A DNA stretch of 64,000 bases from an uncultured Pseudomonadota bacterium (GCA_937912125.1 CALDOK010000075.1:1-64000), one strand, 5' to 3'. Counted from the stretch's first letter, positions 38,176-59,058 are shown. Notes: generated by a model from the letters alone, not told the origin. Program-made: numbers and translations.

Positions 38176-38213
38176 GAGCGGTTCTCCTGTGCTGGGAAGG
38201 CGGGGAGGATAGC

Positions 38214-40037
38214 ATGGACACACCACCACACCGGAGTCCACAGCGCGTGAACCCCCTGGACACAGGCAGCGTAGGCCCCCTGGACTGGCTCATGGCCAGC
38301 CTGGCGCTTGTGCTCACGGCCACCCTGGTCGCCCGGCTCTGGGGCCACTGGCGCCCGCCCAGCAAAGAACCAGCCCAGCGGGCTCTGCTGCTGGACAGCG
38401 CCTGCGCCGTGGCGCTGGCCGGCTACGGCCTGTGGTGGAGCTACCACCTGTTCGGGCAGGCCAACCCGGCATGGATCCCCACCGCGCAGGACTTCGCCGA
38501 GTACTCCGGCACCCTGGGCAAGGTGCTCGCGCCCGATAGCATCGACATCTACTGGAACCGCAGCCTGCTGTACCCCTGGCTGGCCACCCTGCTGGTCCAC
38601 GGCCTGGGCCTGACGCCCTACGACGCCGCCATCCACCTCTCCATCGCCTCGTCGGGCCTGCTGGCTGCGGCCGTCTGGGCCGTGGTGCGCCAGATCGCGC
38701 CCCGGCCCATCGCCCTGGGCAGCGGCCTGCTGGTGCTGCACCTGCCTGCCGCCATGGAGCGGCTGGGCCACGTGAGCGACTACGCCACCAGCCACCTGCT
38801 CTCGCTGCTGTGCCTGGCGGCGGGGCTGCTCGCCCTGCGGCGCCCCAAGGTCTGGGCCTTCCTGCTGGCAGGCTGCGCGCTGACCCTGGTGCTCGCCTGC
38901 ACCCCCAAAGGTCTGGCGGTGGCCCTGGTGCTGCTGCCCCTGCTGGCCCTGGGCGTACCCTGGCGCAGACCGAATGAAGCCGCCTTGGCAGCGGCCGCGG
39001 TGATGGGCCCCATCGCCATGGGCTGGTGGCTCTACGGAAGCTCTGGCATCGAGCACAGCTCTCTGGAGTGGGGGGTCATCGGCCTGAAGCAGACCTGGGC
39101 GGCCACCCAGGGCATCCGGCTGGACAACGGTCACTGGGGCCTGCCCCTGTCCGTGGGGGACCCAGGCACCTGGCGCTTCGGCGGCGACGGCGCGCTGGAT
39201 GGCCTGTACAGCACCATCACCGTGATGATCCGCAGCCCAATCGACTACCCCTCCCTGGCCGCGCGGGTCGCCGACAGCCCGGCGCTGCTGTGCGAAGCCC
39301 TGAGCCTCAGGTCCCCGCTGCCCCTGGCCCTGGCCGCGCTGGGCTGCCTGGCCCCCTTGGTCACCACGGCCGACCGCGCCCGTGGGCTGGCGGCGGCGGT
39401 GCTGCTGCTGGCCTTCCTGGGCACCCAGGCGCTGGGCGCCCACGGTGTGCCCCTGCGCAGCTACTACGTGATCCACCTGCTGGTCCTCGCCCCCGGCCTG
39501 GCGCTGGCCGCAGCCTGGCTGGTGGGCCGCTCGCTGCTGGCTGGCCCGGCGTCCACAGCGCCCCTGTGGGCCCTGCCGGCGCTGGCCCTGTGTCTGCTCC
39601 ACAGCCCCGCCGGCATCGGCCACAGCCATGCTCAACAGATGGTGCTGGCCCACCAGTTCGGCTTCCTGGGCAACCCCAGCGCCACCACCACCGCCACGCG
39701 TCTGCGCGACGAGCTGCGCGCGGGCGACGTGGTGCTGGACGCCACGACCCACCGCCAGGGCCTGGACGCCTTCTACGGCCTGGCACCGGTACAGGCCGCG
39801 GCCCAGCCTCGGGGCACAACGGCCGTCACCGGGTCGGGGATCGAGGCCGAGCGCCGCTTCGTGGTGCTGGACTGCGCCTTCGGCCACCGCTTCCCGCCCC
39901 AGGCCCTGATGCTGGCCCAGACCTTGAACCGCGCGCCCCGCTTCCACCCCTGGGCCAGCTGCATCTACCTGGACGACCACCCGGATCAACCCGTCGACAT
40001 CCAGCCAGGCCCTGTGCCGGATGCGGCGATGCCGTGA
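38214..40037 (+). CDS. Polytopic membrane protein, GT-C glycosyltransferase-like
   Basis: 607 aa if started at 38214; GTG at 38247 is also possible because only 38 bp separate it from the divergent amidohydrolase start. Eleven or so hydrophobic segments. The first large loop contains QDFAEYSGTLGKVLAPDSID, with the acidic residues expected near the membrane in GT-C enzymes. A long soluble C-terminus follows. Its TGA overlaps the GTG of the next gene. Likely acts on polyprenyl-linked sugars. Confidence 0.6.
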   Translation: MDTPPHRSPQRVNPLDTGSVGPLDWLMASLALVLTATLVARLWGHWRPPSKEPAQRALLLDSACAVALAGYGLWWSYHLFGQANPAWIPTAQDFAEYSGTLGKVLAPDSIDIYWNRSLLYPWLATLLVHGLGLTPYDAAIHLSIASSGLLAAAVWAVVRQIAPRPIALGSGLLVLHLPAAMERLGHVSDYATSHLLSLLCLAAGLLALRRPKVWAFLLAGCALTLVLACTPKGLAVALVLLPLLALGVPWRRPNEAALAAAAVMGPIAMGWWLYGSSGIEHSSLEWGVIGLKQTWAATQGIRLDNGHWGLPLSVGDPGTWRFGGDGALDGLYSTITVMIRSPIDYPSLAARVADSPALLCEALSLRSPLPLALAALGCLAPLVTTADRARGLAAAVLLLAFLGTQALGAHGVPLRSYYVIHLLVLAPGLALAAAWLVGRSLLAGPASTAPLWALPALALCLLHSPAGIGHSHAQQMVLAHQFGFLGNPSATTTATRLRDELRAGDVVLDATTHRQGLDAFYGLAPVQAAAQPRGTTAVTGSGIEAERRFVVLDCAFGHRFPPQALMLAQTLNRAPRFHPWASCIYLDDHPDQPVDIQPGPVPDAAMP

Positions 40038-41071
40038 GGTCTGGACGCTGGGTGGCGGCCTGCCTGGTCCTGGTCGGCAGCGCGCTGCTGGCCGCGGGCG
40101 GCGTAGAGCTCGTGGCCAGGGCGCGCCAGCTGGATCGCATGCAGCTCGAGCGGGTGGCGGTCGATGGGGGCGAGCCCTTCGGCGGCAGCAGCGAGCAGGC
40201 CATCGCCCCGGCCTGGCGCGAGCGCGCGGCGCCGCTGATCGAGGGCTACCTGCCCGCCGACTTTCGCCTGGACGAGGACGGCTTCGACAGCCGCCACGGC
40301 CGCTGCGACTTCCAACACCCCGGCCCCACCCTGCTCGCCCTGGGGGACAGCACCACGATCATGAGCTCCGACCCGGACGCGGCGGGGCCGCCCATGGGCG
40401 CCGGCGACCCGGCCTGGACCTGGCCAGCCCTGCTCGCGGCGCAGCTGCCCCCGGACACCCAGGTCTGCACCGTCGCCGAGCTCGGCTTCCATCCCCAGGA
40501 CCACGCGCGCTTTCTGGAGCTGCTGGGGCCCGCCCTGGACCCGGCCCTGGTGGTGGTCCTGCTCTGCAGCAACGACCTCGAGGCCCAGGCCCCCCGGGTG
40601 CGCCAGGACGACGCGGGGGGCAGCATCTACTATGTCTCCTCCGGCACCCAGGCGGCCCACCGGGCCCTGCCGCTGCGCCCCCTCTTCGCGCGCTCCGAGG
40701 CCTTCCGCTTCCTGCACTGGCGGGCCGCCCTGCGCTGGCCCGAGGCCGCGCTGGATCTGCCATCTCCCCGCTTCCCCGCCACCCCCGCCGCCGACAGCCT
40801 GCGCCGCCTGGACGAGCTCTCCCGCAGCCTGGCCCTGTTCTACCTGCCGGAGCTCCGCGACGAGCTGCCGGCCAGCGGGCGGGCGTTGGAGGACCTCGAT
40901 GTGGCGGTGCAGGTTCTGGACCTCCCCTCTCCCCGCCCGGCCCTGCGCTACAACCCTCAGGACCCGGTACACATGAACCGCCGCGGTCACCGCGCCGTGG
41001 CCGAGCTCATGCTCCCGGCGGTGCGGAGGGCGCTGGGGCTCGCAGCGCCCGCAGCCCCCGACGCACCGTGA
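40034..41071 (+). CDS. SGNH/GDSL-like hydrolase or acyl-group esterase, membrane anchored
   Basis: 345 aa, GTG start overlapping the previous stop (GTGA). One N-terminal transmembrane segment (VAACLVLVGSALLAAGGVEL). The soluble part has SGNH features: LALGDSTTIM (block I, GDS), LLCSNDLEA (block III N), and HMNRRGHRAVAELML (block V His). Such proteins often remove or transfer acyl groups on exopolysaccharides. It overlaps the end of the convergent radical SAM gene by 65 bp. Confidence 0.65.
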   Translation: MRSGRWVAACLVLVGSALLAAGGVELVARARQLDRMQLERVAVDGGEPFGGSSEQAIAPAWRERAAPLIEGYLPADFRLDEDGFDSRHGRCDFQHPGPTLLALGDSTTIMSSDPDAAGPPMGAGDPAWTWPALLAAQLPPDTQVCTVAELGFHPQDHARFLELLGPALDPALVVVLLCSNDLEAQAPRVRQDDAGGSIYYVSSGTQAAHRALPLRPLFARSEAFRFLHWRAALRWPEAALDLPSPRFPATPAADSLRRLDELSRSLALFYLPELRDELPASGRALEDLDVAVQVLDLPSPRPALRYNPQDPVHMNRRGHRAVAELMLPAVRRALGLAAPAAPDAP

Positions 41072-42134
41072 GCAGCGCCGCCCTGCCCGGCGAACCCACC
41101 AGGGTGGGGTAGGCCTCGCAGGGGGTGAAGCACCCGCCACACTCCAGCGCGACCGCCCCGCGCCGCGCCGCGAGGGCCTCGGCCTCGGCCCACACAGCCC
41201 GCAGGTCGAACCCGCGCTCCCGCAGGTCTGCGATGGGCCGATCCCAGACGTGACAGGGGTAGAGCCACCCTTCGGCCGAGACGAAGCAGGCCGAGTGCAG
41301 GGCCTGGCAGGCCATCCCCAGGGGCTCGCCCCCCAGCCAGGCGCGCAGGTTGACCAGGAAGCCCAGCTCCATCAGGTCCACCGGGGAGCGGGGGGGCCAG
41401 CGCCGGCGGAGGTGCTGGGCCACCAGGCGGAGATCCGCGGCGCGGTCGGCGATCGTGCCGGAGCCAGCGGCCGCGCTGGGTGCGTTGCCGAAGAACATGG
41501 CCGAGACCTGGGTCAGGTTCCAGTGCCACAGGTGATCTTCGAAGCCGGGCAGCTCCCGACGCAGGGCCTGGCCCAGCTCTTCGAGGGCCCCGCGGTTGTC
41601 CGGGCCCACGGTGGTGCCCACGAAGACATCCACGCCCGTGAGATCCTGCAGCGCCGTCCAGGTGCGCACCGCCGCATCCCAGGAGCCTGGACGGCCTCGG
41701 AGCCGATCGTGCAGGGCGGGAGGGCCGTCGAAGCTCACGGTGACCAGCAGCTCCACGTCCGGGCGACGCGCCCGCACCAACCGCGCCCCCGCGGCGGCCT
41801 GCTCGGGGAACCAGCCGTTGGTGGGAAAGTGCAACACCGCCAGGCTGGGCGTGTTGTCGAGCACGGCCTCGAGGCAGGCGAGCCAGTCGGATCTAAGGCA
41901 GGGCTCACCTCCGGTCAGGTCGAGCCACGCCAGCCGGGGCATGGCCGCGAACAGGCCGCCGAGCTCGGCTGGGCTCAGCTCCTGGCCGGGCTCCATGGAC
42001 CAACTGGAGCACTGAGTGCAGCGGCAGGTGCAGCGGCGGGTCAGGGCCACCACAGCCCGCCGGGGCGTGCCCGGCCTGCGCAGCCACACCGGCCCGAAGG
42101 CCCGCAGCAGGCGCGCGATGGAGCGGGGCCGCAA
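41007..42134 (-). CDS. Radical SAM protein with SPASM-like C-terminus
   Basis: 375 aa, TTG start at 42134 (no ATG available; the preceding gene stops 6 bp upstream). Cluster motif CTCRCTQC (C-x3-C-x2-C, about 35-42), then LDLTGGEPCLRSDWL (GGEP). The C-terminal Cys-rich portion (CHVWDR, CGGCFTPCEA) resembles a SPASM/Twitch auxiliary-cluster region, as in peptide-modifying or sugar-modifying enzymes. No precursor peptide is visible next to it. It overlaps the SGNH gene by 65 bp and is co-oriented with the GT2 gene. Confidence 0.75.
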   Translation of the reverse strand: MRPRSIARLLRAFGPVWLRRPGTPRRAVVALTRRCTCRCTQCSSWSMEPGQELSPAELGGLFAAMPRLAWLDLTGGEPCLRSDWLACLEAVLDNTPSLAVLHFPTNGWFPEQAAAGARLVRARRPDVELLVTVSFDGPPALHDRLRGRPGSWDAAVRTWTALQDLTGVDVFVGTTVGPDNRGALEELGQALRRELPGFEDHLWHWNLTQVSAMFFGNAPSAAAGSGTIADRAADLRLVAQHLRRRWPPRSPVDLMELGFLVNLRAWLGGEPLGMACQALHSACFVSAEGWLYPCHVWDRPIADLRERGFDLRAVWAEAEALAARRGAVALECGGCFTPCEAYPTLVGSPGRAALLTVRRGLRALRAPAPSAPPGA

Positions 42135-42140
42135 GGGGGC

Positions 42141-42887
42141 CTAGCGCTCGAGCAGCCGGCCCACCACCATGCGTCGCATGATGCGCAGGCCATCCCGAGC
42201 GGTCTCGAAGCCCGAGGCACCACCACCGCGAGGCGCGCGGGTGACCGGCACTTCGACCACGCGCCCGCCCCGCTGGACCACGTGCAGGCACAGCTCGGTC
42301 TCGATCTCGTAGCGCATGGCGCGCAGCAGGGTGGGGTCGAGCGCCGCGCGACGGACGAGCCGGAAGCCGGCCTGGGTGTCGGTGATGCGCGTGCCGTAGA
42401 GCAGGTTGAAGACGCGGGTGATGGCCTTGTTCCCGATCAGGTGGCTGCGGGTGATGGACCCGTCGTACAGGGTGCCGATGAAGCGCGAGCCGATGACCAT
42501 GGCCACGTCGGGGGTCATGGCGCCCAGCAGGCGGGGGAACTCGGCGGGATCATCCTGGCCGTCGGCGTCGATGAAGGCCAGGATCTCTCCCGTGGCTTCG
42601 GCGATGCCCGCCCGCAGGGCCTCGCCCTTGCCGCGGTTGGGCTCGAGGCGCAGCACGCGCCCCCCCACGGACTGCGCCACCTGAGCGGTGCCATCGGTGG
42701 AGCCGTCGTCCACCACCAGCACCTCGCCCAGCCCCGGCAGCGCCAGGCGCGCGGCCTGGATGACCGCGGCGATGGTGGGGGCCTCGTCATGGGCTGGGAT
42801 GACCAGGGAGACCCGCGGCGCCAGCGCAGCGGCGGCGTGGCGCTCGCGGTCGGTGATAGGACTCGCAGCTGTGGTCTGGACCGCCAT
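42141..42887 (-). CDS. GT2 glycosyltransferase, dolichol-phosphate-mannose-synthase type
   Basis: 248 aa from the ATG at 42887, with GGAGG 8 bp upstream. GT-A fold signature SLVIPAHDEAPTIAAVI (about 26-42), the acidic pair VVDDGSTDGT, FIDADGQDDPAEFPRL (about 106-121) and RRGGRVVEVPVTR-type end. Enzymes of this type move mannose or glucose from a nucleotide sugar onto polyprenyl phosphate, feeding the GT-C enzymes nearby. An 86-bp gap separates it from the divergent GT-C-like gene. Confidence 0.8.
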   Translation of the reverse strand: MAVQTTAASPITDRERHAAAALAPRVSLVIPAHDEAPTIAAVIQAARLALPGLGEVLVVDDGSTDGTAQVAQSVGGRVLRLEPNRGKGEALRAGIAEATGEILAFIDADGQDDPAEFPRLLGAMTPDVAMVIGSRFIGTLYDGSITRSHLIGNKAITRVFNLLYGTRITDTQAGFRLVRRAALDPTLLRAMRYEIETELCLHVVQRGGRVVEVPVTRAPRGGGASGFETARDGLRIMRRMVVGRLLER

Positions 42888-42973
42888 GGGAGCAGCCTCC
42901 GGTGGGCAGGGCCAATAACCGCAATCCGCCGTGATATGAAGCTGCGGTACCCACGTCCGACCCGAGCCAACCC

Positions 42974-44545
42974 ATGAGCGCCGCGGCATCCCCTCCCCTC
43001 ACCCGTAGGCAGCGTCGGATCGTCCTGGCGCTCGGCGTCGTCGTCTTCCTGGTCTCCGGGCTGCGCTTCGACGGCCCCAGCCGTGGCTACTGGGACACCT
43101 ACATCACAGTGCCCGCCATGTTCATGACCGGCCAGCCGGTGGATCTGGTCCGCATCGATGGCTCCCCGCGCTTCGACTACACCCTGGCGGGCGTGGTGCC
43201 CGACGACACCTTCGACCCCACCCCGGGCAGCTTCGGCATCGCGTCGAAGGATCAGCGGGTGGGCACGGGCATCCTCTTCGCGGCGCCCTTCGCCCTGTTC
43301 GGTCAGGCAGCCTTCCGCTGGGGCTACGCCGCCACCTGGGCCCTGCTCTTCGGCTTCGGCTTCCTGGGGCTGCGGCGGCTGGGCGTCCCCGCGGCCAAGC
43401 GCGCGCCGTCGCCGGGCATGGACTTCACCGTGCCCCTGCTGGGCGCGCTGTTCCTGGTCTTCAACCCCTTCTCCCTCTACCTCGACCGGCTCAACGGCAA
43501 CCTCTTCGGGCTGGCCTTCCTGGTCTTTCTGTGGGTGCTGCTGTCCGAGGATCGCCCCTCGTGGTGGCTCTGCGGCCTGGTCTACGGCATCATCGGCGGC
43601 ATCCGCAACGAGGCCATCATCCTGGGCCCCATGATGCTGGCCTTCATGGCCCTGGGCAAGCCCGGCTGGTCCCGGTACCTGGGCCGCCTGGGCACCTTCA
43701 CGGCCGCGGCCTTCGTGGCCATCCTGCCGGTGCTGCTCTGGAACCAGTTCGCCTACGGCCAGATGATCATCCACCCCAGCCAGGTGGCCCACCTCGAGGG
43801 CTTCCGCCCCACCTTCCCCCACACCTGGTTCGGGTTGTCCGAGCCCTTCGAGTTCAACGGGCTGCTCAACTGGCCGTTCCACACCCAGATCATCCGCACC
43901 CCCCACTTCGCCTACCCCACCTGGCTGCACTGGCCCCTGGTCACCATCAAGAGCATGGGCCTGCTGCTCACCCCCGTGGCCGCCGTGGGATCGGTGGTGC
44001 TGCTGCGGCGGCAGCGCTTCCTGGGCGCGCTGCTGTGGTTCTGGTACCTCATCGTGGCGGTGCTGTTCGTCTTCCAGGAGAACTGGGAAGAGCTCAAGCA
44101 GACCTTCATGGCGCTGCACCTGTTCCCTCTGGCAGCCTTCGTCACCATGGGCCTGGCCTGGATGGCGCAGGGCCTGGGCTCGTGGAAGCGCTGGGCGGGC
44201 ATCGCGGCGGCGGCGGTGCTGCTGGGCGTGACGCTGCTGGGCGTGCGCCAGTGGACGGTACCCGTGGACGAGCGCTGGTACGTGCGCTTCCCCCACGCCG
44301 GCTCCAACGACGCCGGCCTGGACGAGCTCCCCGTCCACCTGCGCAAGGACTGGCACTTCTTCTACACCCACGAGACCGACCGTGAGATCCTGGCCGAGCG
44401 GCGCCACATGACTCAGCCCTGGCCCTGGCCCAGCCTCTACCGACCGCTGCACCTGCCCAGCGCCGAGGATCTCGCCAGGATCCCGCGGGAGCCTACCACC
44501 CGCGAGCTCCGCACCCTGGCCATCTGGAGCTACATCTATGAGTAG
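42974..44545 (+). CDS. Polytopic membrane protein, GT-C glycosyltransferase-like
   Basis: 523 aa. About eleven hydrophobic segments. An acidic residue pair lies in RGYWDTYITVPAMFM near 40. NPFSLYLDRLNGNLFGL and GGIRNEAIILGPMM are typical of PMT/ArnT-like multipass enzymes. The C-terminal 60 residues are soluble. Its stop overlaps the start of the metallo-beta-lactamase-fold gene (8 bp), so the two are probably translated together. It likely uses the product of the neighbouring GT2. Confidence 0.62.
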   Translation: MSAAASPPLTRRQRRIVLALGVVVFLVSGLRFDGPSRGYWDTYITVPAMFMTGQPVDLVRIDGSPRFDYTLAGVVPDDTFDPTPGSFGIASKDQRVGTGILFAAPFALFGQAAFRWGYAATWALLFGFGFLGLRRLGVPAAKRAPSPGMDFTVPLLGALFLVFNPFSLYLDRLNGNLFGLAFLVFLWVLLSEDRPSWWLCGLVYGIIGGIRNEAIILGPMMLAFMALGKPGWSRYLGRLGTFTAAAFVAILPVLLWNQFAYGQMIIHPSQVAHLEGFRPTFPHTWFGLSEPFEFNGLLNWPFHTQIIRTPHFAYPTWLHWPLVTIKSMGLLLTPVAAVGSVVLLRRQRFLGALLWFWYLIVAVLFVFQENWEELKQTFMALHLFPLAAFVTMGLAWMAQGLGSWKRWAGIAAAAVLLGVTLLGVRQWTVPVDERWYVRFPHAGSNDAGLDELPVHLRKDWHFFYTHETDREILAERRHMTQPWPWPSLYRPLHLPSAEDLARIPREPTTRELRTLAIWSYIYE

Positions 44546-45296
44546 CGCAGGGGCCGAGCTGCGGGTCACCATGATCCGCTGCTCCACCCTGCTGCTGTCC
44601 TGGGGGGGTCAGCACTGGCTGACCGACCCCTGGTTCGCCATGCACCTGCGCGGGCTGCCCTGCTTCCGCCGGCCCGGGATGCGCCCCGAGGCCCTCCCCC
44701 CCCTGGACGCGGTCTGGGTCAGCCACCTGCACCCGGATCACTACGACCCGCGGGCCATGAAGCGCTGCTGCCGCCCGCCCCTGCGCTGGATCTTCCCCCC
44801 CGGGACAGCGCGCAGCCTGGGCCGCCTGCCACCGGGCGGCCAAGAGCTCGAGCCCTGGGGGAGCGTCCAGCTGGGGCAGGTGCAGCTGTGGGCCGTGCCG
44901 GGTCCCCACACCTTGCCTGGGCCCGAGGAGATCAACTTCGTGGCCCACCTGCCCGGCTGGGGCCGCCTGTTCTTCGGCGGCGACGCCAAGCTCGACCGCA
45001 GCGTGCTGGCCCGTGTGCGCGCCGAGCACGGGCCCATGCGCCTGGCGATGCTGCCGGTGGGGGGCACCCGGATCTTCGGCAGGCGCACGGTCATGTGCCC
45101 GCCCCACGCGGCAGAGGCCGCCGAGATCCTCTGCGCCCAGCACGTGGTCCCCATCCACGAAGGCGGCATCTGGATGTCGGTTCCCCCTGCGTCCCTGCAC
45201 AGCGGCCGGGCCAGCCACCTGCTGGACATCATGGCCCGCCAGGGTCAAGCCGAGCGCGTCCTGCTGCTGCGCCCAGGGCAGAGCGCCACCATCTGA
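44538..45296 (+). CDS. Metallo-beta-lactamase-fold hydrolase
   Basis: 252 aa. MBL signature HLHPDHYDP (about 63-71; HxHxDH), later GPHTLPG, FGGDAKLDR (Asp) and VVPIHEGG (His). The MBL family here resembles UlaG/RNase-Z-type hydrolases. It overlaps the GT-C-like gene by 8 bp. A role in processing a lipid-linked sugar is an inference from position. Confidence 0.75.
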   Translation: MSSAGAELRVTMIRCSTLLLSWGGQHWLTDPWFAMHLRGLPCFRRPGMRPEALPPLDAVWVSHLHPDHYDPRAMKRCCRPPLRWIFPPGTARSLGRLPPGGQELEPWGSVQLGQVQLWAVPGPHTLPGPEEINFVAHLPGWGRLFFGGDAKLDRSVLARVRAEHGPMRLAMLPVGGTRIFGRRTVMCPPHAAEAAEILCAQHVVPIHEGGIWMSVPPASLHSGRASHLLDIMARQGQAERVLLLRPGQSATI

Positions 45297-45305
45297 GCCA
45301 GGGGA

Positions 45306-46706
45306 CTAGATGTTGCGCAGCACCTTCATGGACGCCTGGGCGACCGCCTTGGAGCTGGGCCGTGCCCGCGTGGCCAGGAACAAGGCCAGCTTGGCCAGCT
45401 TGCCGGGCCGCAGGTAGAAGCTCTTGACGATGTCCCGCCGCATGGCCTCGATCTCGGCCGCGGAGAGGTGGTCGTTGCGGATGATGGACTTGCGCAGGAA
45501 GACATAGTCGTCCCAGTCGTCGGAGAGGAAGCGGCCTTCGGCCATGCAGTCGTTCCACAGCCCCGTCCCCGGCAGCGGAGTGGCGAAGGACAGCTGCAGG
45601 GTGTGGGGATCGAGCGCCAGGATCTTGGCCTTGGTGGCGGCGATCTTGTCGGCGTCGTCGCTCGGGAAGCCCACGATGGAGTAGCCCATGGCGATGATGC
45701 CGTGGCGCTTGAGGCGCTCGATGGCCGCGCCGATCTGATCCTCGGTGACGCCCTTCTGCACGGCGCTCAGGCGGGCGTTGTCGGCGCTCTCGATGCCCAG
45801 CCCGATCTGCAGGCAGCCCGCCCGGCGCATCAAGGCCACCAGATCGTCGCTGAGCATGTCGACCCGAGTGTTGCAGACCCAGCGCACCCCCTTCAGGGCG
45901 CGCCGGCGCAGCATGAGCTCGCAGACCTGCTCGACGAACTCGCGGCGCCCCGTGAAGGTGTGATCCAGGATGGCGAAGTAGTCGGAGCCGTGGCCCCAGA
46001 CGCAGTCCTCCATCTCGTTGACCACCGCCAGCGGGCTGCGAGTGCGCATCCGCTGGCCCACCATCAGGTGGCTGTCGCAGAAGCGGCAGCGCCCCGGGCA
46101 GCCCCGGGTGGTGCGCAGCGCGGTGACCCGCCTGGACCAGGGCGCCGAGTACAGGCTGTTGTCCAGCAGATCCCGGGCGGGGACCGGCAGGGAGTCGAGG
46201 TCCTGGCACAGGATGCGATCGGGGGTGGCCACCAGGGCGTCCCCCTGACGGATGTGCAGGCCTTGGACCTCGCGCAGATCGGCATCGCGCACCATGGCAC
46301 TCACCAGCTCGAGCACGGTCCACTCGGGCTCGCCCCGCACGATGGCCTCGAGGCCGTGCAGCTCGGCCAGGGTGCGCTCTGGCAGGGCCGATCCGTGGGG
46401 GCCGCAGAGCACCAGCCGCGGTCCGCCCGAGACGGCCAGCCGCTCGGCGAGGCGGCGCACCGAGTTGATGGCGAAGGTGGCGGCCCAGAAGATCACCACG
46501 TCGGGGGCGATAGTGCGGATGACACCCAGCTGGTGGTCCTCGTCCAGGCCCATGGCGTTGGCGTCGAGCAGCGCCACCTCGACCTCGGGCAGCTCCCTGC
46601 GCACCAAGGCCGCGCAGGTGGCCAGCTCGAGGGGGGGCACCACCGAGATCAGCGAGGTGTACTCGACCCGCTGCTGGTAGTGGGTGTTCGTGAAGAGGAC
46701 GCGCAT
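45306..46706 (-). CDS. B12-binding radical SAM protein
   Basis: 466 aa from the ATG at 46706. N-terminal cobalamin-binding-like region (about 1-150) with PPLELATCAALVRRELPEVE then VVIFWAATFAINSVRRLAER; the radical SAM motif TTRGCPGRCRFCDSH (C-x3-C-x2-C, near 205-213) and the later LGIESADNARLSAVQKGVT. This layout is typical of B12-dependent radical SAM methylases and related enzymes used in lipid and natural-product pathways. The upstream carbamoyltransferase gene stops 4 bp before its start. Confidence 0.78.
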   Translation of the reverse strand: MRVLFTNTHYQQRVEYTSLISVVPPLELATCAALVRRELPEVEVALLDANAMGLDEDHQLGVIRTIAPDVVIFWAATFAINSVRRLAERLAVSGGPRLVLCGPHGSALPERTLAELHGLEAIVRGEPEWTVLELVSAMVRDADLREVQGLHIRQGDALVATPDRILCQDLDSLPVPARDLLDNSLYSAPWSRRVTALRTTRGCPGRCRFCDSHLMVGQRMRTRSPLAVVNEMEDCVWGHGSDYFAILDHTFTGRREFVEQVCELMLRRRALKGVRWVCNTRVDMLSDDLVALMRRAGCLQIGLGIESADNARLSAVQKGVTEDQIGAAIERLKRHGIIAMGYSIVGFPSDDADKIAATKAKILALDPHTLQLSFATPLPGTGLWNDCMAEGRFLSDDWDDYVFLRKSIIRNDHLSAAEIEAMRRDIVKSFYLRPGKLAKLALFLATRARPSSKAVAQASMKVLRNI

Positions 46707-46710
46707 GGGT

Positions 46711-48387
46711 TCAGCCGCCCCGCTGCAGGAGGAAGGGACCCAGGGCCAGGCAGTCGACCTCCTTGCGCTGGAAGATGTCCAGGGCATCGGCGGCGGTGCA
46801 GGCGATGGGCTCGCCGTGGATGTTGTACGAGGTGTTGAGGATGGTGGGAGTGCCCGTGGCCTCGTGGTAGTGCCGGATGATCCTGTAGTAGCCGGGGTCG
46901 TGCTCGGGATGGACCACCTGGGGCCGCGCCGTGCCGTCGATGTGCACCACCGCGGGCGAGGCCTTCTGCATGGCGGGGGTGGTGTCCAGACAGATGGTCA
47001 TGTAGCGAGCGGTGTGGGCCACGCCCGGGCCGTAGTCGCTGTAGCAGGCGGCCGCATGGTCGACCATGGTGGCCGGCGCGAAGGGCATGAACTCGGAGCG
47101 GTCCAGCCTGCGATTGAGCCAGTGGTTGACCGTCGGGTCCGCTGTGTGGAACAGGATGGAGCGGTGCCCCAGGGCGCGGGGGCCGTACTCCATGCGGCCG
47201 GTCACCCGGGCCACCACCTTCTTCTGGATCAGCAACTGGGCCACCCGGGCGTCGATGTCGTCGCAGCGCTCGTGGGGCACACGCTGGCGCTCGAGCAGCT
47301 GGCCGATGGACTCCTCGGTGATCTCGGTGCCCAGGTAGGCGTGTGGCAGGGCGTGGGGCGCCGCACCGTGATGCTCGGCCACCCAGGCCAGGCCAGCGCC
47401 CACGGCGATGCCCTGGTCGGTCATCCCGGGGTGGACCCAAAGGCCGTCGATGGCGGGCTGCTTCCACAGCAGCTGGTTGACCCGCACATTGGCGAAGACG
47501 CCTCCGGCCAGCACGATGTGGCGGTCGCCGGTCTCGCGCAGGGCCCGCAGCACATAGGCCAGCAGCAGATCCTCGAGGCGCTTCTGGGCTGCCGCGCTGA
47601 CGTCCTCGCGGGAGAACGCCGCCAGCTTGGCGAACAGGCCCCGCTTCTTGGACTTGGGCCAGTGCCAGGCCAGCTGGAAGTCGGTGTCGTCCCGACGCAG
47701 CCGGAAGAGCTTCTCCATCACCGGGTAGGCCCGGCTGGGGTCGCCATGGGCGGCCAGGCCCGTGACCTTGCCCGCGTCCAGGATGCGGAAGCCAAGGTAC
47801 TGGGAGATCTCGCCGTAGAACTCGCCGGGGGAGTCCACCGCGCTGGAGCCCCACAGCGGCTCGCAGCGGCCCCCACGGCAGCGGAACACCCGCGCGGAGA
47901 AGCCGTCGCCCATGTTGTCCACGGTGATGGCGGTGCACTCAGGGAACCCGGAGCTGAGGTAGGCCGAGTAGGCGTGGGCGGTGTGGTGGTCCACCAGAGG
48001 CACGGAGCGGCCAAAGCGGCGGGCCAGCAGCTTGGAGGACAGCGCCTCGAGGCTCTGAGCCAAGGGGCCGGGGGTGTGGAAGCGGTCCTGCACGCTCAGC
48101 CAGGCCTTGTGCTGTGGCCCGAACATGTCGTGCTCGCCTTCGATGGCGCGCCCGGTGACCCGCGGCAGGAAGTGGAAGCGGTTGCCCGCCACCACAGCGT
48201 CGACCTGGTCGAGGGTGACGCCCGCCAGGCGCAGCACCTCCTGCACCGCCAGGCGTGGGTAGCCCGCCTGGAACTTGGTGCGGGTGAGCCGCTCTTCGGC
48301 CACAGCGGCCAGGATGCGGTTGCCGCGCAGCAGGGCCGCGTTGGCGTTGGTGTCTTCGTGGATGGCCAGAATGAGGGGGGAGGTCAA
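46711..48387 (-). CDS. O-carbamoyltransferase, NodU/CmcH family (copy 1)
   Basis: 558 aa; start TTG at 48387 (GAGG 7 bp upstream). Family features: AIHEDTNANAALL near 8, VAEERLTRTKFQAGYP, VDHHTAHAYSAYLSSGF (about 140-157), the nucleotide-binding GGVFANVRVNQL, GRMEYGPRALGHRSILF (about 405-421), FMPFAPATMV and LNTSYNIHGEPI. NodU/CmcH/TobZ enzymes make carbamoyl-AMP from carbamoyl phosphate and ATP and transfer the carbamoyl group to a sugar or other hydroxyl. All catalytic segments look intact. It is co-oriented with the small membrane protein 8 bp upstream and the B12-radical SAM gene downstream. Confidence 0.85.
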   Translation of the reverse strand: MTSPLILAIHEDTNANAALLRGNRILAAVAEERLTRTKFQAGYPRLAVQEVLRLAGVTLDQVDAVVAGNRFHFLPRVTGRAIEGEHDMFGPQHKAWLSVQDRFHTPGPLAQSLEALSSKLLARRFGRSVPLVDHHTAHAYSAYLSSGFPECTAITVDNMGDGFSARVFRCRGGRCEPLWGSSAVDSPGEFYGEISQYLGFRILDAGKVTGLAAHGDPSRAYPVMEKLFRLRRDDTDFQLAWHWPKSKKRGLFAKLAAFSREDVSAAAQKRLEDLLLAYVLRALRETGDRHIVLAGGVFANVRVNQLLWKQPAIDGLWVHPGMTDQGIAVGAGLAWVAEHHGAAPHALPHAYLGTEITEESIGQLLERQRVPHERCDDIDARVAQLLIQKKVVARVTGRMEYGPRALGHRSILFHTADPTVNHWLNRRLDRSEFMPFAPATMVDHAAACYSDYGPGVAHTARYMTICLDTTPAMQKASPAVVHIDGTARPQVVHPEHDPGYYRIIRHYHEATGTPTILNTSYNIHGEPIACTAADALDIFQRKEVDCLALGPFLLQRGG

Positions 48388-48395
48388 GACGCGCC

Positions 48396-48689
48396 TCAGC
48401 TTGCGCGAGGGGCAGGAGCAGCGCGCCGCTGAAGCCACCAGCCCACCGCACCCAGCAGGTTGATCCCGGTGGCCACCGCGATCACCAGGCCCGGCCGTAC
48501 GCTGACGCCGAGCAACCAGGCGGCGGAGAAGCTGGCGATGGGCACCACCAGCACCCCCAGGGTGAAGCCGGCGCCCAAGCGCATGGCCAGGGACCAGGCG
48601 CGACCCGCGGCCATGCCGATCAGCACGCCGGGGAGCACGAAGGCATAGGCGAGGGCCAGGGCCTGGAGCAGGAGAGTGAGCAGCAACAC
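48396..48689 (-). CDS. Small integral membrane protein
   Basis: 97 aa, with three hydrophobic segments (about 2-28, 34-60, 66-86) and a short basic tail (RRAAPAPRAS). The TGA is 8 bp before the TTG start of the carbamoyltransferase gene, so it is likely the first gene of that minus-strand transcript. No family recognised. It may anchor or transport the lipid-linked intermediate, but that is speculation. Confidence 0.6.
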   Translation of the reverse strand: MLLLTLLLQALALAYAFVLPGVLIGMAAGRAWSLAMRLGAGFTLGVLVVPIASFSAAWLLGVSVRPGLVIAVATGINLLGAVGWWLQRRAAPAPRAS

Positions 48690-48798
48690 CGGGAGGCCTC
48701 ACTGGATGCAGACAAGCCTCAGTACCACGCTGTCCGCGAGCAGACATGGCCCGGAGATCGCTGGTTGCCCAGCAGGTGGCAGGAGTTACCTGCGGCAC

Positions 48799-49830
48799 AT
48801 GAGCCTCGAGCACACCAAGGCCAGCGCGCAGCAGCGGTCCACACCCTCGGGCCGCAGGCGGAACCCCTCCCCGAGCCTCAGCGCCGAGCGGCTCGGGCGC
48901 TGGCTGGCGCAGCCCGCGCTGCACTGCGACGACGGCCAGATCCTGTCCTGGCTCAACCCCGCCCATCCCGGCTACCCCTACCCCGAGGCCAGCGCCCTGT
49001 GGCTCTCCTGGGCCGCCTGGCGCCACGAGCAGCGGCTGCCCGCCCCACCGCGCCAAGCCGCACGCCGCGCCGCGGCCTGGCTCCATGCCCAGCTCTCCGG
49101 CCCCGGAGCCATCGGACGCCAGGGCCGCAGCTACGCCTTCGACACGGGCCTGGCCGTCCACGCCCTGGTGCGGGCGGCCCGCACACCTGGGCTCATCGGC
49201 TTGGACAGGTCCGATCTCCCCAGCCTGTCGGCGGGCCTGGACGCCTTCCTCGACGCCGACCAGCCCGCTCTACCCGGCGCCCGCGGGGCCGCCCGCTGGT
49301 CCGAGCGCTGGGGCGGCCACATGGTGCGCGCGGCGGCGCTGGTGTTGCAGGCCGGGCTCTGGCTCGACCACCCGCCGACCCAGCAGCGCGCCCGTCGGAT
49401 GCTCGCCCGGGCCGTGCGCATCCAGCCCGATCAGCCCTGCTATCTACACGCCCTGGCCTACCAGGCCGAGGGCGATCTGCTGCTCACCAGCCTGGGCGTC
49501 GCAGGTCTCCACCAGCACGTCCCCCACGCGGCCCAGCGGCTGGCGCAGCTGCAGCGCCCCGACGGGCTGCTGCCCGGCTGGTCGGACCGCCCCGACAGCG
49601 CCCGCTGTGACACCACCGCCCAGGCTGTGCGCCTGTGGGCCGCCACCGACCCGGAGCGCTTCGCCGACGCCATCGCCGCAGCCCTGGCCGCCCTGGCCCG
49701 CTGCCAGCAGCCCGAGGGGGGCCTGCCCTACGAGCCCGGGGGCCTGGACATGAACACCTGGGCCGGCCTGTTCGCGGACCAGGCGGCGCGCTGGGCCACC
49801 CACGGCGCCGATCCCGCAAGCCTGCTCTGA
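48799..49830 (+). CDS. Alpha/alpha-toroid protein next to carbamoyltransferase genes
   Basis: 343 aa from the ATG at 48799, with AGGAG 13 bp upstream. The sequence is a series of paired helices with recurrent aromatic and small-residue motifs (SYAFDTGLAVHALVRAA, RCDTTAQAVRLWAAT, LPYEPGGLDMNTWAGLF), as in six-hairpin barrels of the terpene cyclase, glycosidase or lanthionine cyclase type. No DxDD or DxDTTA catalytic signature is clear, so the class is unknown. It is followed 2 bp later by the second carbamoyltransferase gene. Confidence 0.6.
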   Translation: MSLEHTKASAQQRSTPSGRRRNPSPSLSAERLGRWLAQPALHCDDGQILSWLNPAHPGYPYPEASALWLSWAAWRHEQRLPAPPRQAARRAAAWLHAQLSGPGAIGRQGRSYAFDTGLAVHALVRAARTPGLIGLDRSDLPSLSAGLDAFLDADQPALPGARGAARWSERWGGHMVRAAALVLQAGLWLDHPPTQQRARRMLARAVRIQPDQPCYLHALAYQAEGDLLLTSLGVAGLHQHVPHAAQRLAQLQRPDGLLPGWSDRPDSARCDTTAQAVRLWAATDPERFADAIAAALAALARCQQPEGGLPYEPGGLDMNTWAGLFADQAARWATHGADPASLL

Positions 49831-49832
49831 CC

Positions 49833-51503
49833 ATGGCCCACGCTGTCCTCGGCCTCTGGGATGGACACGGCGCGGGCGTGGCCCTGGTGGCCGAGGGCCG
49901 CCTGATCTTCGCCCTGAGCGAGGAGCGCCCCAGCCGTCGCAAGCGCCACTCCGGCTTCCCGCGCCTCAGCCTGGCCCTGGCCCTCGAGCATGCCGCCAGC
50001 CTAGGCCACGAGATCCGGGGCGTGGCCGTGGCGGGAGCCCGGGGCCGCAGTCCCCTGCGCCTGCTCGAGCCTCTCTACGCGGGCAGCAGCCCCCAGCGTG
50101 AGCCCCTTGGAGTCACCAGCCGAGCGGCCATGGCCTGGGAGAACCGCGTGCCTGGCATGCCGCTGCTCGGGCGGCTGGAGCCCTGGCCCTCCCGCCTGCT
50201 GATCCAGCGACGCCTGGCCCGGCTCCTGCCCCAGGCGGCCCCCTTCACCGCCGTGGATCACCACGACGCCCACGCCTACGGCGCCCTGCTCGGTCCTGGG
50301 CGCGAGGGCTCCCTGGTGCTCACCGCCGACGCCTACGGCGAGGGCCTGGCCGCCACCCTTCGCGCGGGCGACGCGCCGGCGGCGCTGCTGGCCCACCAGC
50401 ACCCGGATCTGGGCCTGGCCCTGCTCTACGGCGCCGTCACCGTGGCCTTGGGCTTCGCAGAGGGCGACGAGGGCAAGGTCATGGGCCTGGCGGCCACCGG
50501 CGATCCCGAGCCTGGCCTGCCCCGCTTCCGCGCCCTGTTCCACGCTGACCGCGCCGTGCCCCGCCTGGTGCGGCCCCTCACCCGGCGACGGATAGCCCGG
50601 CTGGTGAAGGGCCTGGCCCGGCAGGACGCGGCGGCGGCGCTGCAGGCCTGCGTCGAGGAGCGAGCGGTCACCTGGGTCCGGGCCCTGCTGGCGGAGCACC
50701 CCGCCCCCCGCCTGCACCTGGCCGGCGGCCTGTTCGCCAACGTGCGCCTCAACCAGCTGCTGGCGGAGATCCCCGGGCTCGGGGGTCTGTTCGTCTTCCC
50801 CGCCATGGGCGACGAAGGCTTGGCGGCCGGCGCGGCTCACGCCCTGTGGCACCAGCGCTTCGGCGCCCTGGCGGCCCCGCTGCAGGGGGGATCCCTGGGG
50901 GTGGTGCGGGGCGCCGCCACCCTGGAGGCCGCCGCCAAGGCGAGCGGCCTGCCCTGCCGCCGGGTCGATCCCGTCCAGGCCGCCGTCACCCACCTGCAGG
51001 CCGGGCGGGTGCTGTGCCGCTACGGCGGCAGGGACGAGTACGGCCCCCGGGCCCTGGGGGACAGCTCCATCCTCTTCCGGGCCGACCGCCCCGCGCTGTC
51101 CCAGCGGGTGAACCGAGCCCTGAGCCGCGATCCCATCATGGCCTTCGCGCCCATCATGCCCGCCGAGGCCGCCGCCGAGTCCATCCGTTCACCCCTCCCC
51201 GGCCCGGACCTGCGCTGGATGACCATCACCGCCCAGGCCACACCCGCCCTGGTCGAGCGCTGCCCGGTGGCGGTCCACGTGGACGGCACCGCCCGCCCCC
51301 AGCTCGTCTCTCGCACAGCGGACCCCGAGCTGCATGCCCTGCTGACCGGGTGGTGGCAGGCCAGCGGCCAGCCCGCCCTGATCAACACGAGCTTCAACCT
51401 CCATGGCGAGCCCATCGTCCACAGCCCGTCCGACGCCCTGCGCAGCTTCACCGCATCGGGGCTCGACGTGCTGCTGATGGGCGAGTGGGAGCTGCGGCGC
51501 TGA
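49833..51503 (+). CDS. O-carbamoyltransferase, NodU/CmcH family (copy 2, divergent)
   Basis: 556 aa. Family motifs remain: LSEERPSRRKRHSGFP, VDHHDAHAYGALLGPG, LAGGLFANVRLNQL, GRDEYGPRALGDSSILF, IMAFAPIM and INTSFNLHGEPIVHS. Two changes stand out against copy 1: the strongly conserved ALGxRSIL has become ALGDSSIL, and SEFMPFAP has become DPIMAFAP. They may alter the nucleotide or acceptor site. The gene starts 2 bp after the alpha/alpha-toroid gene, and the two are probably co-translated. Confidence 0.82.
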   Translation: MAHAVLGLWDGHGAGVALVAEGRLIFALSEERPSRRKRHSGFPRLSLALALEHAASLGHEIRGVAVAGARGRSPLRLLEPLYAGSSPQREPLGVTSRAAMAWENRVPGMPLLGRLEPWPSRLLIQRRLARLLPQAAPFTAVDHHDAHAYGALLGPGREGSLVLTADAYGEGLAATLRAGDAPAALLAHQHPDLGLALLYGAVTVALGFAEGDEGKVMGLAATGDPEPGLPRFRALFHADRAVPRLVRPLTRRRIARLVKGLARQDAAAALQACVEERAVTWVRALLAEHPAPRLHLAGGLFANVRLNQLLAEIPGLGGLFVFPAMGDEGLAAGAAHALWHQRFGALAAPLQGGSLGVVRGAATLEAAAKASGLPCRRVDPVQAAVTHLQAGRVLCRYGGRDEYGPRALGDSSILFRADRPALSQRVNRALSRDPIMAFAPIMPAEAAAESIRSPLPGPDLRWMTITAQATPALVERCPVAVHVDGTARPQLVSRTADPELHALLTGWWQASGQPALINTSFNLHGEPIVHSPSDALRSFTASGLDVLLMGEWELRR

Positions 51504-51518: not shown

Positions 51519-52511
51519 TCAGGCCTTCTTCCAGCGCAGCCCGATCATGCTCACGAGCCCACCCGCGGAGTTGGCGATGACCTGGGTGATGTGAGCCACC
51601 AGGGCGAAGCCGAAGGCGGCCTCGGGCGTGGCCACACCGGTGAGCAGCAGAGCCTGGGACGCGAACCAGTGGTAGTTGCCCGCGCCGGTGGGGGGCGCCG
51701 GGATGGTGAAGCCGATGCCGATCATGCCCATCACGAAGACCGTGTGCTCCAGACCTCCGTCCACGTGGACCATCCGCATGCACAGCAGCAAGGCCACGGC
51801 CAGCAGCGCGAAGCTGGCCGCTGTGTAGGCGCTGGCGGCCAGGAAGGCGCGGGGACGGGACATGGTGGCCAGACCAGCGGCGAAGTGGACCGCGGTCTCG
51901 TAGGCCTGAGGGGCGCGACCACCCAGGACGCGCTCGAGCAAGCCAACCAGCCGGCCCCGTCCTTCGCGCTGCCGATCGGCCTGCACCCAGCGGGCGGCGA
52001 TGACCCCTGTGGCCAGAGCCACCAGGCTGGCCGCCGACAGCAGCACGATGCCCGTGTGGGCAAAGGCGGGCAGCTCGAGCACCAGCGCCGAGGCCAGCAG
52101 GCAGAGCACCACGAAGAGCAGATCGAAGAGCTTGACCCCCAGCATGGTGGCCAGGGCGAAGCTGAAGCGGGCCTCGGGCACGTTGGCGGCCAGCAGGTAG
52201 GGGCGGCCCAGCTCACCCGCCCGGGCGGGCAAGAAGTTGTTCATCAGGAAGCCCACGAAGACCAGCCGCACGGACAGCAGCCGAGACACCTGGATCTCCT
52301 CGGACAGCAGCGCTCGCCAGCGCAAGCCCTTGAGGGCGTAGTGCAACACCAGCAACAGCAGCACCGGCGCCAGCAGCTCGGTTCGGCTGGCCTGGAGCAC
52401 CTGGGCCACCCCCTGCCAGTCCAGGCCCCGGACCACCAGCGCCAGGAACCCGGCGGCGATGGCCAGGCTCACGCCCAGCCGAACGAACTGGCGGCGGGAG
52501 GAGCCCGCCAT
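51519..52511 (-). CDS. Lysylphosphatidylglycerol synthase TM-region-like protein (UPF0104/AglD family)
   Basis: 330 aa, eight transmembrane helices. The family motif FLMNNFLPARAGELGRPYLL (about 88-107) is present, and PAPPTGAGNYHWF near 260. The family includes MprF flippase domains and AglD-type proteins that flip or transfer lipid-linked sugars. Its ATG overlaps the last base of the upstream GT-C-like gene. Likely role: translocation of a glycolipid. Confidence 0.8.
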   Translation of the reverse strand: MAGSSRRQFVRLGVSLAIAAGFLALVVRGLDWQGVAQVLQASRTELLAPVLLLLVLHYALKGLRWRALLSEEIQVSRLLSVRLVFVGFLMNNFLPARAGELGRPYLLAANVPEARFSFALATMLGVKLFDLLFVVLCLLASALVLELPAFAHTGIVLLSAASLVALATGVIAARWVQADRQREGRGRLVGLLERVLGGRAPQAYETAVHFAAGLATMSRPRAFLAASAYTAASFALLAVALLLCMRMVHVDGGLEHTVFVMGMIGIGFTIPAPPTGAGNYHWFASQALLLTGVATPEAAFGFALVAHITQVIANSAGGLVSMIGLRWKKA

Positions 52512-54685
52512 CAGAGGTAGCTCTCAGGCTCGCCGTACACGAAGCGCGTGTGGGGTACACCGTCGGCCAGCTCGATGAACCAGCCGTCGATGCGATGGGG
52601 GACGCCCTCGCTGGGGTTGACCAACCAGCTGCGCACCACCACCCGCATGTCCGCCGGGATGCGCAGGTGCACCACCGGCTCCGTGTCCATCCAGGGCAGC
52701 GCGGTCATGGACGTGGCCAGCCCTTGCTGCCGACGCTCGGGGAACAGCTCGTACTGCACCAGGTTGACCTTCTGGAAGCCCAGCTCGTCGCGCTCGAGGG
52801 TGACGAAGGCGTTGAGGTCCAGGTACAGCTCCCGGAGCACCCCGATGTCCGGCCGCTGGGCCAGCACCGTGACCGGCAGGGGCTGGGCCTGCCAGCTCAC
52901 CTGGACCTGCTTGTGGTGGATGTCGAAGACGCGCCCGGGCTCTGCGTAGTCCACCAGCCGACGCCCTGGCGCCTCCTGCACCACCACCGCCGCCGCGGGG
53001 TCGGTGACCAGGCGCTCGAGGTCCACGCTCAGGCTGATCCAGCCGGGGTCCTGATCACCGGGGCCCAGGGGGGCGGGGACCTGGAGATCTTCGGCGTCGA
53101 GCCAGCGTTCGATCCAGGGGCTCTCGCGCCCCGCCAGCATCGTTGTCTCCACCAGCTTGGCCTTCGCCCACTTGGCGCGCCAGCGCAGCTTGTCGGCCAT
53201 GGGGCCGTAGGACGGCAGGGCGCCAGACGGGGCGAAGACGGCGCGCATGCGGGCCAGGTAGGCGGGGGTCTCCCGCTGGTACACCGGCTTGCGCTCGAGG
53301 CTGCTGAGGTCGGGCTCGCTGTCGGATGCGCGAGCGCCCAGGTCCACACCGACCACCACCAGCAGGCAGGCCGCCAGCGCTGCGCTCCTGAGACCCCAGC
53401 CCGTGCGGACCATCAGCCCCCGCAGCCCGGCCGCGAAGAAGCAGAGCACTGGCCACAGGGACATGATGAAGATGCGCGTCTTGTCGTGCTCGATCCAGTC
53501 CCGCTGACCCGCCAACACGACCAGGGGCAGCAGCGCCATCAGCGCCAGCGCGACCCCCGTGACCGGCCGCTCCCGCAGCCAGCGCAGCGCCCCGTACAGG
53601 GCCAGCGCGGCCACCACCCAGCCCAGCTGGGACAGCAGGAAGACGAGGTAGTAGACCCCGTTGGCGTAGGGCAGCATGGGGGTGCGGAGCCCGGCGAGCA
53701 GGCCGGGCACGGCGGCGCTCTCGCCCATGCTGTGGAAGCCGTGGTGCTGCAGGTGGGGCAGCTCGAAGGCGAAGGCCAGCAGGACGCCGACCGCCAGCAA
53801 CACCCAGCGCCGCCAGGGCTGGCGCTGCTCGGCGTAGATCAGCGCGACCGAGGCGAGGAAGAGCAGCGGCAGGAAGCGCAGGCCCAGCCCGCCCAGCAGC
53901 CCCAGCAGCAGGCCGTGCAGCAAGGACCGCTCCCGGTGGACCACCAGGGTGTACAGCAGGGCGGGGGTCAGGGCGAGGACGTAGACGTTGCGGTCCAGGA
54001 CCTCGATCCACAGGGTGTAGGGGTTGAGCACCGCGAAGCAGGCCACCACCACCGCCACCAGCAGCGAGCCTGTCCAGCGCCGCAGCAGCAGGGTGCCGAA
54101 CAGGAACAGCAGCATGTGGAAACCGGCCTGGAGGGCCTTGAAGGTCCAGGGCCCCAGCACCGCCATCCAGCTGGCGGTGAACATGGAGTTCCCGGGGGTG
54201 CTGATGATCTCGTAGGCGCGGCGAACCATGCCGGGATCCCGCCCGACGTTCAGCTCCGGCACGAAGCTCAAGGTCTGCATGTAGAAGCACTTGGCCTTGT
54301 CGGTCTGCAGGTAGCTGCCGAGGGAGAGCCACAGCTCCGCGTCGTTGTGGTGCAGCCAGGTGAAGCCACCCAGCGCCAGGCCCAGGGCCAACACGCCCAG
54401 CTCCCACGGCTCGGGGCGCGGCGGCAGCACCCCGCGACCCAGCCGCCACGACGGCCACGCCAGCCCCAGCAGGAAGGCCCCTGAGACGGCCAGCAGCAGC
54501 CCAGCGGAGATGAAGGCAGGCAGCGCGAGGGCCAGCTGGTAGGCCACCAGGGGCACGGCCGCGAGGGTGAACAGCAGCCCGTAGGCCACGCGCTCGAGGA
54601 AGCCCGCCCGAGGGGCCAGGACGCTGGCGAGCAGCCACCCCACAAGGATCATCGGGAGCGCAAGCAAGGGGCGGTGCCGCTCCAT
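52511..54685 (-). CDS. Large polytopic membrane protein, GT-C glycosyltransferase-like
   Basis: 724 aa. About twelve hydrophobic segments up to residue 440, then a soluble C-terminal domain of about 270 residues with beta-rich character. TWLHHNDAELWLSLGSYLQT lies in the first big loop, with the expected acidic pair. The C-terminal domain ends in a beta-rich part (VVHLRIPADMRVVVRSWLVN). It is the largest of five GT-C-like proteins in the window. The UPF0104 gene follows directly, so they form an operon. Confidence 0.62.
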   Translation of the reverse strand: MERHRPLLALPMILVGWLLASVLAPRAGFLERVAYGLLFTLAAVPLVAYQLALALPAFISAGLLLAVSGAFLLGLAWPSWRLGRGVLPPRPEPWELGVLALGLALGGFTWLHHNDAELWLSLGSYLQTDKAKCFYMQTLSFVPELNVGRDPGMVRRAYEIISTPGNSMFTASWMAVLGPWTFKALQAGFHMLLFLFGTLLLRRWTGSLLVAVVVACFAVLNPYTLWIEVLDRNVYVLALTPALLYTLVVHRERSLLHGLLLGLLGGLGLRFLPLLFLASVALIYAEQRQPWRRWVLLAVGVLLAFAFELPHLQHHGFHSMGESAAVPGLLAGLRTPMLPYANGVYYLVFLLSQLGWVVAALALYGALRWLRERPVTGVALALMALLPLVVLAGQRDWIEHDKTRIFIMSLWPVLCFFAAGLRGLMVRTGWGLRSAALAACLLVVVGVDLGARASDSEPDLSSLERKPVYQRETPAYLARMRAVFAPSGALPSYGPMADKLRWRAKWAKAKLVETTMLAGRESPWIERWLDAEDLQVPAPLGPGDQDPGWISLSVDLERLVTDPAAAVVVQEAPGRRLVDYAEPGRVFDIHHKQVQVSWQAQPLPVTVLAQRPDIGVLRELYLDLNAFVTLERDELGFQKVNLVQYELFPERRQQGLATSMTALPWMDTEPVVHLRIPADMRVVVRSWLVNPSEGVPHRIDGWFIELADGVPHTRFVYGEPESYL

Positions 54686-56091: not shown

Positions 56092-59058
<2,967 letters not shown>

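Follow-up and report, generated by a model that had tools for sequence, protein, structure and literature searches.

Pairs of family 2 (GT2) and GT-C glycosyltransferases, such as ArnC/ArnT and the mycobacterial pairs, belong to polyprenyl-phosphate sugar pathways. Carbamoyltransferases (CTs) of the NodU/CmcH family have solved members in TobZ, GdmN and the novobiocin carbamoyltransferase; in GdmN, His27 acts as the general base, the H27N variant is inactive, and this histidine is reported to be universally conserved in its subclade (PMC9633730). Here, we describe a locus in which two relatives of these solved enzymes, CT1 and CT2, are encoded together with a GT2 protein and a GT-C-like protein. 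It was found in a stretch of 64,000 nucleotides (the window) from an uncultured Pseudomonadota bacterium (GCA_937912125.1 CALDOK010000075.1:1-64000), on contig C75 of a draft genome of 9.27 Mb in 527 contigs with an estimated contamination of 5.2%. The cluster proper spans 41007-51503, and its nine genes fall into four blocks of alternating strand, E-D (-), F-G (+), J-I-H (-) and K-L (+) (letters as in Table 1; I and L encode CT1 and CT2, and K encodes a toroid protein). We see an even chance that this region is a conserved biosynthetic cluster for a carbamoylated, lipid-linked cell-envelope saccharide. On our best reading, the product is possibly thiolated and carbamoylated at two steps, and the pathway is undescribed; a literature search found no paper on this gene combination.

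Conservation of the gene set was surveyed in 284 genomes of a single phylum, with limited scans outside it. The genes for the toroid protein, CT2, CT1, the radical SAM/SPASM protein, the GT2 and GT-C proteins, the metallo-beta-lactamase (MBL)-fold hydrolase, the B12-binding radical SAM protein and the 97-aa protein formed a recurrent clustered set, and in the neighborhoods of toroid and CT1 orthologues at least four core genes were grouped in 13 or more genomes, which belong to several families. A toroid profile search identified carriers in 23 of the 284 genomes. Toroid and CT1 were both present in 15 genomes, the toroid only in 8, CT1 only in 4 and neither in 257 (Fisher p = 5e-16, uncorrected for shared ancestry), and the carriers spanned at least seven families. 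Further, a CT2 search across the class detected 46-47% identical orthologues in two genomes (G067 and G070), where CT1, E, F, G, K, L and D occurred together. The usual operon order was K-(E)-L-D; F and G were adjacent wherever both were seen, J adjoined CT1 or H, and a D homologue adjoined the toroid or CT2 gene in most clusters. In several genomes, H homologues lay next to the genes for CT1 and the 97-aa protein, and J homologues (30-59% identical) were located beside CT1 or H in eight other genomes. Unsupervised clustering of neighboring open reading frames (ORFs), whose list also contains strand-shadow ORFs, recovered these families as well: the toroid family occurred in 24 genomes, the D family in 18, that of E in 15, the CTs in 13 and the G family in 12.

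In the same order, the toroid was nearly absent: the 57 other genomes searched gave a single match, weak and partial. This scarcity first pointed to a lack of conservation, but the searches across the class and the phylum showed otherwise. A single-sequence toroid query of the genome contigs gave no match, and a three-sequence toroid alignment as the query identified three loci; a toroid search of plasmids gave no match.

The GT2 protein E, clustered in 15 genomes, had Dol-P-Man synthase and ArnC as its best PDB matches. For F, whose family comprised 15 sequences sharing 38-68% identity, the AlphaFold model had a predicted local distance difference test score (pLDDT) of 83, and the ten best Foldseek matches were GT-C enzymes or GT-C-containing complexes (E 0.004-0.14). 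The MBL-fold hydrolase G best matched NAPE-PLD in the PDB (E 3e-8), and for H, profile comparison indicated a relationship to BchE/HpnJ and sequence comparison one to AprD4. Neither K nor J had a Pfam or NCBIfam match above the cut-off. The toroid protein K consists of 343 aa, its ATG start being likelier than the upstream GTG; with the ATG, the gap between J and K is about 110 bases. Its AlphaFold model was confident (pLDDT 92.8), with (alpha/alpha)6 toroids as Foldseek neighbors, including squalene-hopene cyclases, GH88/GH105 and sugar epimerases (TM-score about 0.5-0.6, Foldseek E 1e-8 to 1e-5). Residues conserved in the K family were FD, WS, Y/H, EG, DxxAQxxR and W, and the invariant positions include D115, Y215, H217, E224, D271 and R278. 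A terpene cyclase was considered for K and rejected on account of its length and the lack of a conserved DxDD column in 19 homologues; SQHop_cyclase_C matched weakly in only 2 of these 19. K likewise had no Pfam match to GH88/GH105 or AGE epimerases, to which its similarity is one of fold only.

A PP-loop ATPase gene followed by a SufS-like cysteine desulfurase gene was located beside CT1 or the toroid in three genomes (G149, G122, G095), and a PP-loop gene was found inside the cluster in six (G070, G067, G204, G169, G065, G192), in some with a NifU-like gene. In the window genome, the PP-loop/SufS pair was unlinked, on contig C239. The PP-loop protein, which has a PDB relative (9kq6), aligned with the genome's own MnmA only over the first 82 columns, so that the two invariant cysteines of its family (C103, C194) are only suggestive. 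The gene families of this pair hint at sulfur insertion.

Starting from gene co-conservation, linkage, the distinct CT1 and CT2 clades and the residue patterns, all of which are directly established, we infer the following steps. E would load a sugar onto polyprenyl phosphate, and K, a toroid of sugar-active type, would modify the sugar or its lipid carrier together with D and H. CT2 would make carbamoyl-AMP from carbamoyl phosphate and ATP and O-carbamoylate a hydroxyl with His12 as the base. CT1 may make a second carbamoyl transfer, for which an amine or thiol is a possible acceptor; its active site would be rebuilt, Ser/Thr standing in the place of the base and His10 or His72 possibly taking over. 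G would remove a phospho or acyl group from an intermediate, F would transfer the sugar across the membrane to an acceptor outside, and the PP-loop/SufS pair may insert sulfur. A saccharide or glycolipid product fits the presence of both a polyprenyl-phosphate glycosyltransferase (E) and a GT-C-like transferase (F).

Several points weigh against this pathway. Some genomes (G151, G249, Co_bin.371) have only the toroid, D and E without CTs nearby, so that the toroid step does not depend on carbamoylation. Identity between the window's H and its counterparts in other clusters is only 34-38%, the E-values behind the predicted fold of F are weak, the sulfur step is one that we infer solely from gene families, and no product, acceptor or sugar-nucleotide pathway was identified. 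The earlier note, made from the window sequence, had proposed an undescribed carbamoylated glycolipid or surface-saccharide pathway and had named conservation elsewhere as a check. That check was passed strongly, and the proposal is partly supported, E and F being in keeping with such a product. Its two-CT core is real, although the boundary that it drew was too narrow. The 97-aa membrane protein and the toroid protein that it placed between the two CTs were confirmed by position, toroid model and homologues, and its B12-radical SAM, UPF0104 and GT-C assignments were correct, the last with weak E-values.

The arrangement of toroid, radical SAM (D) and GT2 (E) genes without carbamoyltransferases nearby was observed at L077 (8823-13302), L088 (8701-11698) and L093 (8922-11588), and the combination suggests an older three-gene core.

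The main rival to an envelope saccharide is a soluble secreted natural product, aminoglycoside-like or a thio-sugar, for which the membrane genes would serve in export or product glycosylation. The best structural relatives of H (AprD4) and of the CTs (TobZ, GdmN and the novobiocin carbamoyltransferase) do come from antibiotic pathways, and the patchy distribution across families resembles secondary metabolism. However, the most constant members include a GT2 of the polyprenyl-phosphate sugar synthase type and also a GT-C-like protein, and the shared neighbors held no conspicuous gene for a nonribosomal peptide synthetase, a polyketide synthase, resistance or a dedicated transporter. We regard a soluble product as unlikely, though a serious contender.

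CT1 (558 aa, likely TTG start; Carbam_trans_N E 1e-27, Carbam_trans_C E 3e-54) and CT2 (556 aa, ATG start; E 8e-20 and 4e-43, PF02543 and PF16861 above the cut-off) are both full-length; the ORF listed at 46711-49161 is CT1 with an upstream non-coding extension. In a maximum-likelihood tree of 55 CTs, the 8 CT1 proteins formed one clade (support 100/99) and the 14 CT2 proteins another, with other genomic CTs outside, which indicates that the two are old, separately conserved enzymes and not the result of a recent duplication. Identity between genomes was 49-69% for CT1 and 39-55% for CT2. About eight NodU-type carbamoyltransferases are present in the genome (contigs C69, C75, C81, C336, C376, C393, C506). 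On other contigs of the same genome, L052 (7322-11789) and L130 (8471-11583) each have a carbamoyltransferase gene with one or two genes for B12-binding radical SAM proteins beside it, so this pairing recurs in the window genome. In G001, of the same family, L050 (10419-17877) contains three tandem carbamoyltransferase genes and, after them, a B12 radical SAM gene; the first of the three enzymes is sister to CT1 and has Tyr at the catalytic-His position.

The catalytic histidine (TobZ H14/GdmN H27; TobZ numbering was taken from the chain alignment with TobZ) is replaced by Thr13 in CT1 of the window (48349-48351), and Ser or Thr occupied this position in each of the 16 CT1 proteins whose N-terminus could be read. 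The surrounding motif is H-E-D-[ST]-[NQ]-A-N, with a conserved His three residues earlier, and N-x-x-H-F-[LV]-P-R is conserved as well; the conserved histidines of the window CT1 are His10 and His72. Because the catalytic His is replaced, CT1 is a homologue with NodU/CmcH architecture and not a demonstrated O-carbamoyltransferase. TsaD, which acts on an amine, also has no His in the corresponding loop in this genome, so that an amine or thiol acceptor is conceivable for CT1. From the sequences we tentatively propose, as an idea with less than even prospects, that CT1 founds a His-less NodU-type class that would carbamoylate an amine or thiol instead of a hydroxyl. The pathway, with the toroid, two radical SAM enzymes, an MnmA-like PP-loop protein plus cysteine desulfurase, the GT2 and the GT-C protein, would then make a novel sulfur-containing, twice-carbamoylated envelope glycoconjugate.

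With the base essential in GdmN absent, CT1 might instead no longer be a carbamoyltransferase, but a pseudo-enzyme or a partner subunit with a regulatory or scaffolding role for CT2. Yet its HxxxH metal site, its NTSxN motif and the conserved C-domain residues that were checked, R418 and R423 among them, are all invariant, it is conserved as well as or better than CT2, and the conserved replacement histidines suggest a rebuilt active site; we hold loss of carbamoyltransferase function to be rather improbable.

CT2 of the window retains the catalytic histidine (His12), which was present in every CT2. Its altered ALGxRSI motif has Ser instead of Arg at TobZ position 423 (codon AGC, 51063-51065), a position that is Arg in the other 55 of 56 aligned carbamoyltransferases. 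AGC is one base away from CGC. Since the CT2 orthologues retain Arg, R423S is either lineage-specific or a consensus error of the metagenome-assembled genome. Loss of this one conserved residue, unique among the 56 sequences and near the carbamoyl-phosphate/ADP pocket, could mean a catalytically dead, drifting CT2, but the same position is reported to vary with substrate among TobZ relatives (PMC8670742). Moreover, the reading frame is intact, R418, HxDGTxR and NTSxN are present, leaving R423 the only differing active-site position among those checked, and the end branch of CT2 (0.57) falls within the range of its sisters (0.37-0.60). The ordinary branch length and intact active-site residues give no sign of decay; a decayed copy was rejected, and a dead CT2 is very unlikely. 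The earlier note had rightly described two divergently transcribed NodU/CmcH-family enzymes and the altered motif of the second, and had named a dead, drifting second copy as what would undo its reading, which was not found. The altered motif is real, but the note had missed a larger anomaly: the loss of His in CT1 is a stronger departure than R423S.

Chance neighborhood of unrelated genes in a single genome, to which the near-absence of the toroid from close relatives of the same order might point, is refuted by synteny, as distant families have these genes clustered too, and has next to no probability left.

Table 1. Genes of the cluster (D to L) and two adjacent genes (M, N), with window coordinates.
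Gene	Product	Position	Strand	Basis
D	Radical SAM protein, SPASM-like C-terminus	41007..42134	-	Weak Pfam Radical_SAM and SPASM matches
E	GT2, polyprenyl/dolichyl-phosphate sugar synthase type	42141..42989	-	PF00535, E 2e-29
F	GT-C-like integral membrane glycosyltransferase (predicted)	42974..44545	+	AlphaFold model and Foldseek; no Pfam match above cut-off
G	MBL-fold hydrolase, overlapping the end of F	44538..45296	+	PF12706, E 1e-16
H	B12-binding radical SAM protein	45306..46706	-	Family profiles; best PDB match AprD4, E 1e-26
I	Carbamoyltransferase CT1 (copy 1 of the earlier note)	46711..48387	-	Carbam_trans_N and Carbam_trans_C
J	97-aa membrane protein	48396..48689	-	Homologues beside the same genes elsewhere
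K	(alpha/alpha)6-toroid protein	48799..49830 (start could be GTG 48676)	+	AlphaFold/Foldseek, homologues
L	Carbamoyltransferase CT2 (copy 2 of the earlier note)	49833..51503	+	Carbam_trans_N and Carbam_trans_C
M	UPF0104/LPG_synthase_TM flippase-like protein; cluster membership doubtful	51519..52511	-	PF03706, E 1e-35
N	Polytopic membrane protein of 724 aa, by eye similar to GT-C; possible member	52511..54685	-	Homologues in G066, G122

M gave a single weak match (25%) near one other cluster. Homologues of N were found beside K/E/F/D in G066 (42%) and in G122 (29%). M, the UPF0104 protein, and N, the large GT-C-like protein, are linked to the cluster at most loosely. Elsewhere in the window, a gene at 56092-59058 (+) resembled by eye a fusion of phosphomannose-isomerase-type and phosphoglucomutase/phosphomannomutase-type domains. 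A gene upstream of the cluster (36934-38241, -) resembled by eye an M20-type N-carbamoyl amino acid hydrolase, and was not found near other clusters.

As a pathway of about ten genes that is conserved across families of one phylum and whose product has no name, the cluster offers the discovery of glycans or metabolites a concrete target. CT1 poses a question of enzymology, namely how a NodU-type carbamoyltransferase might work without the histidine whose mutation abolishes GdmN activity. In addition, the toroid family, which has its own invariant residues and homologues in 23 of the 284 genomes, is recognized above the cut-off by none of the Pfam or NCBIfam models.

Compared with the NodU/CmcH-type O-carbamoyltransferases (TobZ, GdmN, novobiocin carbamoyltransferase and NodU), both CTs share the Kae1-like and YrdC-like domains, the metal site and conserved C-domain residues. 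The catalytic His is a further shared feature of CT2, whereas the CT1 clade differs by Ser/Thr at that position and CT2 of the window by Ser for R423; further, both are encoded in a membrane-glycan gene set and not in an antibiotic or Nod-factor cluster. With CT1, TsaD/Kae1 (t6A) and HypF have the ASKHA N-domain in common, and the genome's TsaD, like CT1, is without the His, but CT1 has a Carbam_trans_C (YrdC-like) domain and groups with the NodU-type enzymes and not with TsaD. K has its toroid fold in common with squalene-hopene cyclases, GH88/GH105 unsaturated glucuronyl hydrolases and 2-epimerases, from which it differs as a single short toroid with no DxDD, no Pfam family match and conserved residues of its own. 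Finally, as in ArnC/ArnT-type pathways, a GT2 of the ArnC/dolichyl-phosphate mannose synthase type is encoded near a GT-C-like transferase; unlike those pathways, the cluster adds two carbamoyltransferases, two radical SAM enzymes, a toroid protein and an MBL-fold hydrolase, to which the clusters of relatives further add a PP-loop protein and a cysteine desulfurase.

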